Positions 12,614 to 62,307 of a DNA stretch of 64,000 nucleotides are shown piece by piece (the stretch's first letter is position 1; the number at the start of each line of letters is the position of its first letter). A model generated the notes under the pieces. It did no database searches and was not told where the DNA came from. It worked only from the letters and a program-made list of their open reading frames with translations. The position numbers and the translations under genes are program-made. Source of the DNA: Natronomonas salina (GTDB lineage Archaea; Halobacteriota; Halobacteria; Halobacteriales; Haloarculaceae); assembly GCF_013391105.1 (NCBI RefSeq), contig NZ_CP058335.1, positions 930,001-994,000 on the forward strand, written 5' to 3'.

Positions 12614-12792
12614 GAGCATCCGCGAGCGAAGCGAGCGGTTCACCGCGCCCGAACGTAGTGAGGGCGCGGCCTTTTTCATCGACGTTCGTCAGAGCGAAGC
12701 TCTGACGCAGCCCATCAGAAATCGAAGATTTCTGAGGACGTTTTTCGAGGAGTGGGTCGCGCGGAGCGCGACCCCGACGAAGAAAAAGGTCG
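12614..12792 (+). repeat. modular hairpin repeat R1
   Basis: In order: block A (GAGCATCCGCGAGCGAAGCG.. to GGTTCACC), hairpin CCGCGCCC-gaacgtagtga-GGGCGCGG (12643-12669), block C CCTTTTTCATCGACG, hairpin CGTCAGAG-cgaag-CTCTGACG (12687-12707), hairpin TCAGAAAT-cgaag-ATTTCTGA (12715-12735), block D GACGTTTTTCGAGGAGTGG, hairpin GGGTCGCGC-gga-GCGCGACCC (12754-12774) and block E CGACGAAGAAAAAGGTCG. It fills the gap between the convergent coiled-coil gene and dnaJ. The U-rich block C after a stable hairpin could terminate transcription. The same architecture recurs at R2, R3 and R4. Confidence 0.75.
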
Positions 12793-12793
12793 G

Positions 12794-13944
12794 TTAGAAG
12801 GAGTTCTTCAGCTTCTCGAAGAACCCCTGCTCGACGTCGATCTCCTCGCCGCCGGCTTCGGCGAAGGCCTCGAGTGCCTCCCGCTGCTCCTCGTTCAGCG
12901 ACTCGGGTGTAACGACCCGGACCTGGACGTAGAGGTCGCCGTGACCGCGGCGCTGGAGCCGGGGCATGCCCTTGCCCTTGAGGCGGAAGGTCTCGCCGCT
13001 CTGGGTGCCCTTCGGGATGTCCATCTCGACGGCGCCGTCGAGCGTGGGCACCTCGACGGTGTCGCCGAAGACGGCCTGCGGGAACGAGATCGGGTGGCGG
13101 TACTGCAGGTCGTCGCCGTCGCGGTCGAACTCGGGGTGGTCCTCGACCTGGACCTCGACGAGGAGGTCGCCGTTCCGGGCGCCGCGCTCGCCGGGCGCGC
13201 CCTCGCCGTCCATCCGGAGGGTCTGGCCGCTCCGGATGCCGGCCGGGACCTCGACCTGCAGGGTGGCCTCGTTGCGGACCTGGCCGTCGCCGCGGCAGGT
13301 CGAACAGGTCTCCGAGTAGATGGTGCCCTGGCCCTCGCACTCCCGGCAGGTCTGGGTCTGCTGGACGCGGCCGAGCGGGGTCTGGCGGACGGTGGTCTGC
13401 TGACCGCGACCGTTACAGGCCGGGCAGGTCCGGGAGTCGGCCTCCGGCGGGTGGCCGGCGCCGTCGCAGTCGGGGCACTGCTCGGGTCGGGTGACGGTCA
13501 GCTGCTTCGTGACGCCCTCGTAGGCGTCCTCGAGGTCGACGGCGAGGCGGGTCTTGAGGTCGGCGCCCTGCTGGGGGCCGGAGCGGGAGCCGCCGCCACC
13601 GCGCCGAAGAACTGCTCGAAGATGTCGTTCATCCCGCCGCCGCCGAAGGGGTCCTGGCCGCCCATCCCGCCCATGCCGCCGGCGCCCCGGCCGCCGGAGT
13701 CGGTCGCGCCGCGCTTGTCGGCCTGCTCGAAGCGCTCGTGGCCGAGCTGGTCGTACATCTGGCGCTTCTCGTCGTCGGTCAGCACCTCCTTGGCCTTCTG
13801 GACCTTCTTGAACTTCTCCTCGGCGTCCGGTTCGTCGGAGACGTCGGGGTGGTACTCCGAGGCCTTCTCGCGGTACGCCTTCTTGATCTCGTCCTCGCTC
13901 GCGTCCCGGGAGACGCCCAGCACCGAGTAGAAGTCCTCGCTCAT
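12794..13944 (-). pseudogene. dnaJ: chaperone DnaJ, interrupted by a one-base frameshift
   Basis: The first frame (from ATG 13944) encodes the J domain ([23 protein letters not shown] at about 32-34), which stimulates DnaK, and a Gly-rich linker up to FEQFFG. At 13601-13602 one base is missing in a GGC/GGT run; the rest continues in another frame to 12794. That frame encodes the four zinc-binding CxxCxGxG motifs (CPDCDGAG, CPACNGRG, CRECEGQG, CSTCRGDG) and the C-terminal substrate-binding domain ending KLKNSF. Restoring one base gives a normal full-length DnaJ of about 384 residues. A sequencing or assembly error in the GC run is a real alternative to true inactivation. A TATA-like CTTTTCAAG lies about 35 nt upstream. 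Confidence 0.85.
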
Positions 13945-14035
13945 TCGTTGTGGGTGCTAGACGATTGAGGTACTTGAAAAGAACGGGTCTGGGTCACGAA
14001 CTGACGCCGCAGCGACACGAGCCGGGCTGCGCGAA

Positions 14036-26628: not shown

Positions 26629-26631
26629 CAC

Positions 26632-26825
26632 CCACTTTTTGCACCTCCCTCGGGTCGCGGAGCGACCCTCGGTCGGGCAAAAACTTGGGGAAAATATGCG
26701 CGCGTGCTCCTTCCGCGGCGCTCCCTCCGGTCGCGCCGCGATTCAGTCCGCGCGCGCTACGGCGACTCGCTCCCTACGGTCGCTCGTCGCCGGGAACCGC
26801 GCTCCCTTCGGTCGCGCGGATACTC
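26632..26825 (-). repeat. modular hairpin repeat R4
   Basis: Read on the minus strand it begins GAGTATCCGCGCGACC and contains hairpins CCGCGC-gaccgaaggga-GCGCGG (26797-26819), GGCGAC..gaccgtaggga..GTCGCC (26761-26791), GCGGCGC-gaccggaggga-GCGCCGC (26715-26739) and GGGTCGC-tcc-GCGACCC (26652-26668), then GTGCAAAAAGTGGG. It is the most hairpin-rich member of the R1-R4 family. It lies between convergent proS and the antiporter gene, in a 246 bp gap, where it could act as a bidirectional terminator. Confidence 0.7.
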
Positions 26826-26874: not shown

Positions 26875-28113
26875 CTACTCCGGGACCACGTCCACGTCGT
26901 CCATGATGACCAGGTCGTCGTGTTCCCGCAGCCACTCGACGCCCCACTTGACCGTCGGCGGGACCAGGACGGTCGTGAAGATGGCCGTGAACACGAGGAT
27001 AGAGAAGAGGTTCTCGCCGATGATGCCGGCCTGGAGCGCGATGAGGACGATGATGATCTCGACGGTGCCGCGGCCGTTCATCCCGAGGCCGATGACCAGC
27101 CCCTCGCGGGAGGACAGCTTCGTCGGCAGCGCGAACAACCAGCTGCCGACGATCTTGCCGGCGAACGCGGCGGTCACGATGAGGGCCAGGAGCGGGAGGT
27201 TCTCGGTGAACACTCCCAGCGTGAGCTCGAAGGCGACGGAGACGAAGAAGATGGGGGCGAAGAAACCCATCGAGAGGTCGTAGATGACGTCGTACATGTG
27301 CTGGTAGATGTCGGGTTCCAGCTGGGCCTGCCGCAGGAAGAGCCCGGCCACGAACCCGCCGATGATCGAGTGAAGGTCGACGAGCGCCGCGAAGTACGCG
27401 AACGCGAGCGCCACGACGAGTGCGACCGTGAACGCGGAGGTCTTGTCGACGAACTCGTGGCGGCCCATCCAGTCTTCGAGGTACTCCCAGAGGTACGGGA
27501 GGACCCGGTCGCCGAAGGCGAGCGCCACGACGAAGAACAGCAGTGCCCTGCCTGCGACCAGCGCGAGGCCGACCAGCGTCACCTCCCCGGTCTCGACGAA
27601 GCCCATGATGCCGGTGAAGACGACCATCACGCCGACGTCCGACAGCAGGGCACCGCCGAGCAGGACGCCGGCGATACGGGTATCGAGGATGTCGAGGTCG
27701 ACGAGGATCCGCGACTTCGTCGCCAGGGAGGTGGCGGCCATCGCGATGCCGACGAACAGCGACTGTTCGACGTTCATCCCGGCGACGACGCCGACCCCGT
27801 AGCCGAGCCCGAACGGGACGAGGAACCCCCCGAGCGCGATCATCAGCGACTGCGGACCGAGGGCGAAGAGGTCGTTGATGTCGACCTCCATCCCGACGTA
27901 GAGCATCAGGAGGAAGACGCCGAGCTCCGCCAGGATCTCGATCGTCCCGCTCGGTTCCAGCAGCCCGAGCAACGCCGGGCCGAACACGATCCCCGCCAGG
28001 ATCTCGCCCATCAGCGCCGGGTACCCCGCCCGCTCGGCGAGCAGTCCGAACACCCACGCCACGGTGAGAATCAACAGCAGGTTCAACAGATCGATCCCCG
28101 CAGCTTCCACCAT
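26875..28113 (-). CDS. cation:proton antiporter (CPA2/Kef-type membrane domain)
   Basis: The product has 412 residues and about 12-13 membrane segments. GYPALMGEILAGIVFGPALLG near the N-terminus, the LLMLYVGMEVD segment and GLGMNGRGTVEIII near the C-terminus are typical of Na+/H+ or K+/H+ exchangers of the CPA2 superfamily. There is no cytosolic RCK/TrkA-N domain, so it is the bare transport module. It should exchange a monovalent cation for protons, important for pH and ion balance at high salt. Ion specificity is not readable. Confidence 0.88.
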   Translation of the reverse strand: MVEAAGIDLLNLLLILTVAWVFGLLAERAGYPALMGEILAGIVFGPALLGLLEPSGTIEILAELGVFLLMLYVGMEVDINDLFALGPQSLMIALGGFLVPFGLGYGVGVVAGMNVEQSLFVGIAMAATSLATKSRILVDLDILDTRIAGVLLGGALLSDVGVMVVFTGIMGFVETGEVTLVGLALVAGRALLFFVVALAFGDRVLPYLWEYLEDWMGRHEFVDKTSAFTVALVVALAFAYFAALVDLHSIIGGFVAGLFLRQAQLEPDIYQHMYDVIYDLSMGFFAPIFFVSVAFELTLGVFTENLPLLALIVTAAFAGKIVGSWLFALPTKLSSREGLVIGLGMNGRGTVEIIIVLIALQAGIIGENLFSILVFTAIFTTVLVPPTVKWGVEWLREHDDLVIMDDVDVVPE

Positions 28114-60049: not shown

Positions 60050-60391
60050 TCAGTCGTCCGCCGCCGCTGTGTCGTCGCCGCCCGACGCCTCCACGTCGGC
60101 GTCGTCCTCGATGCTCGGCGGGTACTTCCCGCGGTCGAGCTTCAGGTCGGACTGCGGGCGCGCCATGCACGTCAGCGCGTACTTCTCGGCCTCCTCTTCG
60201 GTCAGCCCGCGGGCCGCCGGCTGGGTCACCTCGCCCTCCTCGATCTTCGCCGAGCACGCCAGACACATCCCCACGCGGCAGGAGTACTCCTGGGCGATAC
60301 CCTCCTCAATGCAGCGCTTGAGGATGGTATCCTTGTCGGAGACGGTGATCTCCTCACCGGTCCCGACGAACTCGACGGTGTAGTCGGTCAT
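60050..60391 (-). CDS. [2Fe-2S] ferredoxin
   Basis: The product has 113 residues from ATG 60391. The plant-type cluster pattern is CRVGMCLACSA then C in YALTCMARP, three Cys closely spaced (4 and 2) and a fourth about 35 residues later. A Lys/acidic tail ends the protein. It transfers electrons in the cytosol. It lies between the two geranylgeranyl reductases, which need a reductant, so it is a plausible donor; that is inferred from position. Repeat R2 occupies its upstream region. Confidence 0.92.
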   Translation of the reverse strand: MTDYTVEFVGTGEEITVSDKDTILKRCIEEGIAQEYSCRVGMCLACSAKIEEGEVTQPAARGLTEEEAEKYALTCMARPQSDLKLDRGKYPPSIEDDADVEASGGDDTAAADD

Positions 60392-60431: not shown

Positions 60432-60627
60432 CGACCTTTTTCTTCGTCGGGTTTCCTCGCGCGCCGGAGGCGCGCTGCGGGAACCGCGTGGCGGCTTCGC
60501 CGCCACGTTATCGGTTGCCGGCGAAGCCGGCAACCCACTCCTCGAAAAACGTCGATGAAAAAGGCCGGACGCTCCCTTCGGTCGCGTCCGGTGAACCGCT
60601 CGGTCGCTTCGCTCCCTCGCGGATGCT
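60432..60627 (-). repeat. modular hairpin repeat R2
   Basis: Read on the minus strand: block A AGCATCCGCGAG..GAGCGGTTCACC, hairpin CCGGACGC-gaccgaaggga-GCGTCCGG (60565-60591), block C GGCCTTTTTCATCGACG, block D GTTTTTCGAGGAGTGGGT, hairpins GTTGCCGGC-ttc-GCCGGCAAC, CGTGGCGG-cgaag-CCGCCACG and GCGCGCC-tcc-GGCGCGC, and block E CGACGAAGAAAAAGGTCG. Order and single-stranded blocks match R1, while stems differ. It ends 40 bp before the ferredoxin start. Confidence 0.75.
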
Positions 60628-60747
60628 GGATTACTACTTATGGTTTATACTACGAAATTTCGGCACTGATACACCCTCAGTAGCATGGATATTGTCAGCA
60701 GCATGGGATTCTCTCCAGAACCCCGGCGCCCACGCAAAAGCGCGGTC

Positions 60748-60899
60748 GAGTATCCGTGAGGGAGCGCAGCGACCGAGCGGTTCACCCGCGCGAACGTAGT
60801 GAGCGCGGGTAGCGACGAGTGACCGTAGGGAGCGAGGAGCTATTTTTCATCGACGTTTTTGCCGGGCGGCCGCCAGGCCGCCCGTGCAAAAAGGTCGTT
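60748..60899 (+). repeat. modular hairpin repeat R3
   Basis: GAGTATCCGTGAGGGAGCG.. to GAGCGGTTCAC is followed by hairpin CCCGCGC-gaacgtagtga-GCGCGGG (60785-60809), a second GACCGTAGGGA loop, TTTTTCATCGACGTTTTT, a hairpin CGGGCGGC..GCCGCCCG and GTGCAAAAAGGTCGTT. It faces away from R2 across a 120 bp AT-richer core (60628-60747), so the two form an inverted pair. Its E block ends 38 bp before reductase copy 2. Confidence 0.75.
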
Positions 60900-60936: not shown

Positions 60937-62307
60937 ATGACCACGTTCGAGTACGACGTCGTGATCGTCGGCGCCGGCACCGCCGGCTGTTACGCCGGCG
61001 CGACGATCGCAGAGGCCGGATACGACGTCGTCATCGTCGACCGGAAGGACGAGGAGGAGGCGGGTCACATCGCCTGCGGCGACGCGCTCAAGGGAGCCAA
61101 CAAGTTCCCCGAGTCGATCCCGAAGTCCCACATCGAGGACTCCTTCACCAACACGGACGTCGACCACGGCCAGTTCGAGATCCCCCAGGAGGACGTCGTC
61201 CTCGACATCCCGGTGCCCGGCGAACTGGCGGTCATCGACCGCTGGGACTACGGCCGGCGCATCATCGACGGCGCCGACCGTGCCGGCGCGGAGTTCCACT
61301 ACGACACCATCGTCCAGGACGTCGTCCAGGAGGACGACGGGCGGGTGACCGGGCTGAAGGCCCGCAAGCAGGGCGAGTCGCTGACCTACGAGGCCGAGAT
61401 TGTCCTCGACGGGGCGGGCGCGCTCTCGATCCTGCAGGACAAGGCGGACCTCGAGGACGCGACCTTCGACACGAACGTCAACTACTCGCAGTTCGCCTCG
61501 GCGTACCGCGAGGTCATCGAGGTCGAGGAGCCGGTCGAGTGGTCCGACGCCCTGGTGTTCAAGCCGACGAAGCGCGCGGCGGGCTACCTGTGGTACTTCC
61601 CGCGGACGCCGACGGAGATCAACGTCGGCCTCGGCTTCCAGATGAACGAGGAGCCGATGAAGCTCGTCCAGGACCTCCGTGAGGACATCAGCCAGCGCCC
61701 CGAACTGCAGGGCGCGACGGTCAAGGACAAGCTCGGCGCCGCGCTGCCGACCCGTCGGCCCTACGACTCGGCGGTCGCCCCCGGCTACATGGCCATCGGC
61801 GACGCCGCCGCACACGTCAACCCGATCAGCGGCGGCGGCATCGCGGGGGCCGCCTACGCCGGGCAGTACGCCGGCGAGCAGGCAGTCGAAGCCATCGAGG
61901 ACGGCGACGTCGGCGAAGAGAACCTCTGGCGGTACAACGAGCGGGTGATGGACCACTACGGCGGCCGCTACGCGGCCCTCGACATCTACAACATCTTCTC
62001 GACGGCCTACGACCTCGACGACCTGCTGGCGCTGCTCGGCGCGCTCCCCGGCGACAGCATCTCCGAGGCGCTGTACTCCGGGTCGGCGAACGTCGGCCTC
62101 GGGCTGAAGCTGAAGGTGGCCTACGAGACGTTCGGCCACTGGGGGACGCTGAAGAACCTCTACGACACGAAGAAGCTCGCCGACCGGCTCCTGGAGCACT
62201 ACGAGTCGTACCCCTCCAGTCCGGACGGCTTCCCGGAGTGGCGCCGCCAGCGCGACCGGATCATGGACGACATCTACGCCGAGACCGGCGCCGAGCCGAA
62301 GTACTAG
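60937..62307 (+). CDS. geranylgeranyl reductase family protein, copy 2
   Basis: The product has 456 residues. FAD motif VIVGAGTAGCYAG, IACGDALKG and GDAAAHVNPISGGGIAGA are present, and YLWYFPRTPTEINVG is the substrate-site motif. It is a paralogue of copy 1. Differences concentrate in the first 120 residues and the tail, suggesting different substrates (for example a different lipid stage or menaquinone). The upstream region is built from repeat R3, and its 3' end overlaps the convergent regulator gene by 4 bp. Confidence 0.92.
   Translation: MTTFEYDVVIVGAGTAGCYAGATIAEAGYDVVIVDRKDEEEAGHIACGDALKGANKFPESIPKSHIEDSFTNTDVDHGQFEIPQEDVVLDIPVPGELAVIDRWDYGRRIIDGADRAGAEFHYDTIVQDVVQEDDGRVTGLKARKQGESLTYEAEIVLDGAGALSILQDKADLEDATFDTNVNYSQFASAYREVIEVEEPVEWSDALVFKPTKRAAGYLWYFPRTPTEINVGLGFQMNEEPMKLVQDLREDISQRPELQGATVKDKLGAALPTRRPYDSAVAPGYMAIGDAAAHVNPISGGGIAGAAYAGQYAGEQAVEAIEDGDVGEENLWRYNERVMDHYGGRYAALDIYNIFSTAYDLDDLLALLGALPGDSISEALYSGSANVGLGLKLKVAYETFGHWGTLKNLYDTKKLADRLLEHYESYPSSPDGFPEWRRQRDRIMDDIYAETGAEPKY

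Follow-up and report, generated by a model that had tools for sequence, protein, structure and literature searches.

Four copies of a modular repeat (R1 to R4) lie between genes in the window, the whole stretch of 64,000 nucleotides of Natronomonas salina DNA analysed here, and they raise the question of whether their hairpins reflect selection on a structure and what such an element might do where genes end or begin. A first-pass annotation had described shared, unpaired blocks separated by hairpins with compensatory stem changes, and had suggested that the repeat might terminate transcription, stabilise RNA, be mobile or bind a protein. That account is partly confirmed: it was largely right, and the family is larger than it described. 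The four copies exist at the positions it gave, and we find that they are members of a single directional composite element family, with R1 and R3 on the plus strand and R2 and R4 on the minus strand:

12614..12792, plus strand: R1 composite element, a full element between a coiled-coil protein gene (ends 12542, plus) and dnaJ (stop 12794, minus)
12620..12638, plus strand: R1 hairpin 1, CCGC[GA]GC GAA GC[GA]GCGG
12643..12669, plus strand: R1 hairpin 2, CCGCGCCC-GAACGTAGTGA-GGGCGCGG, 37.7 bits in the covariance-model search
12670..12677, plus strand: R1 CCTTTTTC (T5C), directly 3' of hairpin 2 and terminator-like on the plus strand
12684..12739, plus strand: R1 inserted two-hairpin module, ..GCAGCCCATCAGAAAT..GAGGACG
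12740..12792, plus strand: R1 core with hairpin 4, G-TTTTT ... AAAAA-G-GTCG
26629..26825, minus strand: R4 composite element, between proS (stop TAA 26626-26628, plus) and a cation/H+ antiporter gene (26875-28113, minus)
26795..26821, minus strand: R4 hairpin 1, cap GACCGAAGGGA, 39 bits
26714..26740, minus strand: R4 hairpin 3, cap GACCGGAGGGA, enclosed by an outer GCGCGCG/CGCGCGC stem, 37.5 bits
60432..60627, minus strand: R2 composite element; the gene for a 2Fe-2S ferredoxin (60050-60391, minus) has its start codon 42 nt beyond the A5 end
60565..60591, minus strand: R2 hairpin 2, CCGGACGC-GACCGAAGGGA-GCGTCCGG, 39.5 bits
60432..60442, minus strand: R2 basal arm and A5, where the plus strand reads CGACCTTTTTC
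60748..60899, plus strand: R3 composite element; a geranylgeranyl-reductase-like gene (60937-62307, plus) has its start codon 41 nt beyond the A5 end
60784..60810, plus strand: R3 hairpin 2, cap GAACGTAGTGA, 38.4 bits
60851..60897, plus strand: R3 core, CGAC-G-TTTTTGCC [hp4] GTGC-AAAAA-G-GTCG

The A5 end of R1 lies 3 nt from the dnaJ stop codon TAA, and on the other strand its core reads CTTTTTC just 3' of that stop; in R4 a T5 on the plus strand (26636-26640) starts 7 nt after the proS stop. The stems noted earlier are present (CCGCGCCC/GGGCGCGG in R1, CCGGACGC/GCGTCCGG in R2 and CCCGCGC/GCGCGGG in R3), and hairpin 2 of R2 is followed by CCTTTTTC on the minus strand (60564-60557). Of the shared blocks, R4 is without CCTTTTTCATCGACG and AAAAAGGTCG. 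It has the other version of the end, ATATTTTCCCCAAGTTTTTGCC...GTGCAAAAAGTGGG, which differs in the last third of the element and carries TTTTCCCC and CACTTTTTGCAC in place of hairpin-CCTTTTTC. Nor are most of the blocks unpaired as had been described; they are stem arms, with CATCCGC/GCGGTTC flanking hairpin 1 and CGAC/GTCG forming the basal stem around T5/A5. Two-hairpin modules of the R1 type also occur in copies elsewhere in the same genome, at 78281, 503481, 513404 and 3379767.

The dnaJ gene beside R1 (window 12794-13960, minus) seems frameshifted, its C-terminal half and J-domain half lying in different frames (at about 13.5 kb), which appears to be an assembly error or a pseudogene. R2 and R3 point outward from a 120-bp AT-rich stretch (window 60627-60748) with TATA-like sequences, towards two divergent genes; this stretch may hold a lost small gene or a shared promoter. 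In R1 (12670-12677 with 12782-12789) and in R2 (60557-60564), CCTTTTTC can pair perfectly with GAAAAAGG in place of the covarying basal stem, and the element may switch between these folds.

The capped hairpin

The window contains six capped hairpins (loop GA.CG.AG.GA, stem of at least 4 bp), where first-order Markov sequences would be expected to give 0.05. Rather than being open, the 11-nt loop reported by the first-pass annotation forms a structured cap with the grammar GA-N-C(GNA)G-N'-GA. Here C4-G8 closes a GNA triloop, G1A2/G10A11 make a tandem GA step, and loop positions 3 and 9 (N and N') are complementary in all 20 capped hairpins from the sampled stretches of the genome whose stems have 3 bp or more (G-C in nine, C-G in seven and A-T in four). 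Among look-alikes with unpaired flanks N and N' are often not complementary. In an alignment of 16 hairpins, for which the outer stem was a selection criterion and the N-N' pair was not, both partners change in 9 of the 10 pairs, with a covariation score of 0.848 compared with 0.207 when shuffled and at most 0.19 when slid. Longer hairpins follow the same grammar as short Watson-Crick stems divided by GA/GA steps, for example hairpin 1 of R2 (CCGC[GA]GG[GA]GC GAA GC[GA]CC[GA]GCGG). A kink-turn or L7Ae site was rejected by inspection, as the GA/GA steps have no 3-nt bulge; counting every 2x2 loop flanked by short helices proved too noisy, and a folding-based count took its place.

A covariance model of the 27-nt hairpin gave 130 matches at E<=10 in the N. 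salina genome, and the 115 retained for clustering fall into 55 clusters. In almost every cluster all hairpins share a strand and are separated by constant distances of about 29 and 44 nt. A few weak matches within genes are not this element. At C1:2293259, 2313221 and 426450 of the same genome, capped hairpins lie within apparent open reading frames of acidic linkers.

Composite architecture and covariation of the core

When the clusters are laid side by side a fixed 5'-3' order emerges, namely GCATCCGC[hp1]GCGGTTC[hp2], an optional hp3, a T-tract and the core stem. In fuller form the 5' part reads GAGCATCCGC[hp1]GCGGTTC-C[hp2], and hp2 is followed either directly by CCTTTTTCATCGACG, or by a third hairpin within its own covarying outer stem (GCGCCC/GGGCGC, GCGCGCG/CGCGCGC or GCGAGCGCC/GGCGCTCGC) and then ATATTTTCCCCAAG. 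The core, TTTTTGC[hp4]GCAAAAA-G plus a closing tetranucleotide, forms a stem of four basal base pairs, a G.G mismatch, T5/A5 and hp4.

The basal tetranucleotides before G-T5 and after A5-G, which except for one fixed A lie outside the search pattern, are perfectly complementary in 101 of 110 distinct copies from other genomes, whereas 10,000 permutations averaged 23.6 perfect pairs and never exceeded 39. Nine combinations are found (CCAC/GTGG, CGAA/TTCG, CGAC/GTCG, CCAT/ATGG, GAAC/GTTC, GCAA/TTGC, GCAC/GTGC, GGAA/TTCC and GAAA/TTTC), and since identical combinations recur across different families they do not represent one inherited change. Across 36 distinct core sequences 97.5% of cells pair, with a covariation of 0.331 against 0.080 +/- 0.017 when shuffled and at most 0.063 when slid, permutation and slide both being controls that ignore phylogeny. 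Selection on the structure, as first proposed, is thus strongly supported by covariation beyond shuffled, permuted and slid controls, and far above the shuffled alignments that had been suggested as a test. In the folded copies, G.G mismatches (159 1x1 loops) and GA/GA steps (69 2x2 loops) are conserved. Wobble (GT) pairs make up only 1.5% of the standard pairs in the core, versus 8.3% in a small control of nine tRNAs and 14.4% in shuffles. A G.U pair becomes A.C when the opposite strand folds, so that folding of both strands or upkeep of a palindrome at the DNA level would give few wobbles, and the rarity seen here likely reflects DNA-level maintenance or a function on both strands. Even so, the plus strand folds more stably in 96% of cores, and caps upstream of the core number 48 on the plus and 5 on the minus strand.

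Reach of the family

The N. salina genome holds at least 35 copies, and we conclude that the family consists of previously uncatalogued structured DNA repeats of about 130-300 bases, dispersed in salt-loving archaea. The exact block CCTTTTTCATCGACG occurs only twice in the whole genome, in R1 and R2, and therefore an exact-block search alone would have missed the family. Further copies in related genomes, which the first-pass annotation had asked for, are numerous: within the order, the core pattern CTTTTTCNNNNANGTTTTTN{8,38}AAAAA matches 47 of 146 genomes, belonging to 22 of the 56 genera, while its reversed control gave no match in the same 146 genomes. The named matches are mainly from Haloarculaceae (Haloarcula, Halorientalis, Halomicrobium, Halosimplex, Natronomonas and Halovenus). 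Within that family the hairpin was found in all 22 genera sampled, and in a sample of the phylum in 17 genomes of the order and, outside the order, in one genome with a single weak match; shorter-core matches in unrelated archaeal MAGs are possibly due to chance. No Rfam family reached its gathering threshold, relaxed thresholds gave no real match either, and a search of open-licence papers, which is weak evidence for novelty, returned no published description. Carriage by viruses was rejected, the nine core-pattern matches in viral contigs being AT-rich chance matches, and so was carriage by plasmids, where there was one weak match (31%).

Placement relative to genes and a putative two-way terminator

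The sample of the N. salina genome comprises stretches totalling about 0.78 Mb, chosen partly around matches and hence element-enriched, with genes called by a simple codon-based score. In 25 of its 32 copies the A5 end faces the stop codon of an opposing gene, mostly at 1-6 nt and in a few cases at about 20 nt (range 1-21). Most of the other seven end before a co-directed start codon, at 40, 40, 41, 41, 42 and 51 nt, and a haloarchaeal TATA box would lie just downstream of such ends. The gene on the 5' side of the element may have either orientation (16:16). In other genomes a downstream gene was called for 98 copies, and 52 of these have an opposing stop at a distance of 4-12 nt; some copies have no stop codon nearby. 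Where the element abuts a gene, that gene ends in TAA or TAG in 19 of 24 cases, versus 248 of 595 genes overall. In these element-enriched stretches a T5 within 30 nt after the stop is found in only 41 of the 595, at least 27 of them in the CAC-T5-GC/AC form typical of the element. On the plus strand, a perfect GC-rich hairpin ends no more than 3 nt from a T5C in 82 of 110 copies, compared with 27 of 110 random positions. Intergenic RNA 3' ends of Haloferax volcanii carry a motif of a T stretch plus TC, and in a reporter T5C terminated 95% of transcripts in vivo (PMC7237163). The same feature occurs here as hairpin-CCTTTTTC on the plus strand of CTTTTTC-type copies (R1 and R2), and as the T5 behind the opposing stop on the minus strand.

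Taken together, these observations suggest, with a probability that we put at roughly 60%, that the R1-R4 family is a modular, structured, bidirectional terminator or insulator of haloarchaea, dispersed by duplication or mobilisation. Of the roles first offered, that of a putative terminator gains support from the hairpin-T5C on one strand, the T5 directly behind stop codons on the other, and the placement at stops and promoters. A polymerase moving in the plus direction of the element would transcribe hp1 and hp2 and be released at T5C, and the polymerase of the opposing gene would be released at the T5 behind its own stop codon, with the hairpins perhaps aiding release or shielding the RNA 3' end. 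Copies that end ahead of a promoter might protect it from read-through. Such a two-way terminator would suit convergent genes, and between tandem genes it would stop the upstream gene as well as antisense transcripts; copies might then be retained because clean gene ends are useful. Several features sit less easily with a terminator. Pairing that is almost only Watson-Crick is uncommon in ordinary selected RNAs, though it would be explained by function on both strands or by homogenisation of the DNA. If the opposing polymerase stops at T5, most of the structure never enters that RNA, and a pure terminator needs neither the copies distant from stops nor the capped hairpins within genes. The placement could also mirror tolerance of insertion instead of selection for termination.

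If the terminator reading is true, haloarchaea hold dispersed structured terminators whose grammar (GNA caps, GA/GA steps and G.G mismatches around a T5/A5 helix) is recognisable across genera, which would improve the annotation of gene ends and allow native parts to be used in tests of archaeal termination and 3'-end protection. It would also be an example of terminators that spread like mobile DNA.

Spread, gene-tail duplications and alternative explanations

That the repeat might be a mobile element had been among the first suggestions, and it is supported by two observations: relatives differ in whether they carry the element at one orthologous site, and a quarter of copies have gene-tail duplications beside them. 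Of 28 genomes compared downstream of proS, most have no element, among them the only same-genus genome in the sample, and the remainder, across genera, carry it in either orientation and with differing end versions. At two of these loci, L248 (G023) and L251 (G016), the proS stop is followed by the element and then by a second copy of the proS tail, and in L251 the two tails differ mostly at synonymous sites. More generally, a direct repeat of the upstream gene's tail flanks 28 of 110 copies (25%) as against 1 of 571 gene ends. The repeats are 31-136 nt, longer in tandem arrays; the stop codon is often where the first tail ends, and the second begins 4-16 nt beyond A5. Of the differences between paired tails 35 are synonymous and 14 are not, several of the latter being in misassigned frames; the pattern hints at acquisition of one tail from another lineage and not at neutral drift of a copy. 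Gene tail and element together form tandem arrays, with a period of 142-182 nt and two to three copies, at L167 (G039:C2:2825415-2825836), G029:C1:2763330-2763672, L229 and L222. Elements of differing versions and orientations also occur in several genera at the 3' ends of the same genes, namely thermosome (L093, L096, L097 and 2478884 of the N. salina genome), a gene ending in EGELDYQ (L141 and L142) and proS, so that acquisition seems to recur at certain genes. These flanking duplications point to a process acting at stop codons that is worth explaining in its own right.

A tentative extension of the terminator reading is that the element is a mobile, structure-coded terminator cassette that is copied directly behind stop codons by means of its ends; in doing so it would duplicate or import the upstream gene's 3' tail and supply two-way terminators. 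Such a cassette, whose existence is conceivable though doubtful, would possibly also move homologous tails of genes from one lineage to another. New copies might arise by templated insertion, by recombination with donor DNA or through a transposase.

We consider it unlikely that the family is simply a non-autonomous mobile repeat (REP/REPIN-, PATE- or MITE-like) with no cellular function, whose hairpins a transposase recognises in single-stranded DNA and whose placement reflects insertion preference or tolerance. Such a repeat would agree with the lineage-specific amplification seen in N. salina (24 near-identical ends, none in four same-genus genomes), with the variation at proS, the flanking duplications and the scarcity of wobble pairs, as well as with capped hairpins within coding sequence and GNA caps that match C(GNA)G, an extraordinarily stable DNA mini-hairpin motif (PMC4686876). 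However, N. salina has a single Y1_Tnp (IS200-type) transposase gene, and neither element-like ends nor similarity was seen at its locus, for which reason an IS200 origin was rejected. Hairpins within a cluster are nearly all on the same strand, unlike the inverted pairs of BIMEs and REPINs, and a selfish repeat needs no abutment at 1-12 nt from stop codons, no T5C and T5 on opposite strands and no maintained basal pairing.

Improbable in our view is a DNA-level structure to which a protein or recombinase binds, either a cruciform or an extruded single strand; one example would be an attC-like site behind genes that swaps gene tails between lineages. Such a structure would account for strand-asymmetric folding (the plus-strand core folds more stably in 96% of copies), for the G.G mismatches and GA/GA steps, and for structure being conserved and not sequence. 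It would likewise fit the start of the duplicated tails beyond A5, their frequent stop at the stop codon and their mostly synonymous differences, yet it leaves the T-tracts on both strands unexplained. Highly improbable is an independently transcribed family of structured small RNA genes, for despite a long, stable and covarying structure (-80 to -112 kcal/mol minimum free energy in R1-R4) there is no promoter-like sequence before 41 of 45 copies (the TATA-like sequence upstream of just 4 of 45 element 5' ends led us to reject an independent promoter), copy position depends on the neighbouring genes, and Rfam has no match.

Comparison with known systems

As judged from its sequence, the element would act like a bidirectional intrinsic terminator and disperse like an interspersed repeat. 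Bacterial bidirectional Rho-independent terminators have a GC hairpin with a T tract, and an A tract on the other side, such that both strands can terminate. The element shares with them a layout usable for both strands, with a GC-rich hairpin and T tract on one strand and a T tract for the opposite strand, but differs in having its T tract inside the stem (T5 pairs with A5), G.G mismatches, GA/GA steps, accessory hairpins and an archaeal host. Integron attC sites, which are defined by R/L boxes with a 5'-RYYYAAC / GTTRRRY core and by a cognate integrase, stand directly behind stop codons, conserve structure over sequence and have strand-asymmetric mismatches; here the likeness is a resemblance in position and asymmetry only.

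Similar to the element, the PATEs of Haloquadratum are small, transposase-free haloarchaeal elements with palindromes, derived from IS605 ends and causing no target duplications (PMC3119063), whereas the element has gene-tail duplications at a quarter of copies and no IS200/605 similarity at the single IS200-type locus. REP, BIME and REPIN sequences are likewise interspersed extragenic palindromes with tens of copies per genome, for which roles in termination and mRNA stability and possible single-stranded DNA mobilisation have been proposed (PMC3733652, PMC3116915, PMC2817692); unlike them, the element is a composite of 130-300 nt with a fixed order and a T5/A5 core. Two traits that define REP and BIME elements were not found: their inverted-pair or alternating arrangement is not that of our clusters, nearly all of which are single-strand, and the REP tag GTAG/CGTC was not seen at the element ends by inspection (GCATCCGC ... 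AAAAAGTGG/GGTCG). No dedicated RAYT was recognised, and the one Y1_Tnp gene of the genome, which may be a RAYT or an IS200 TnpA, lacks element-like ends at its locus. The intergenic T5C terminators of Haloferax volcanii also place a T stretch followed by C at gene 3' ends and in some cases have a hairpin upstream of the RNA 3' end (PMC7237163). Those, however, are plain T tracts, and their 3' UTRs have a median length of 97 nt (PMC7237163), whereas the element sets its T5C within a conserved multi-hairpin repeat, places a T5 4-12 nt behind the opposing stop codon and carries T tracts on both strands.
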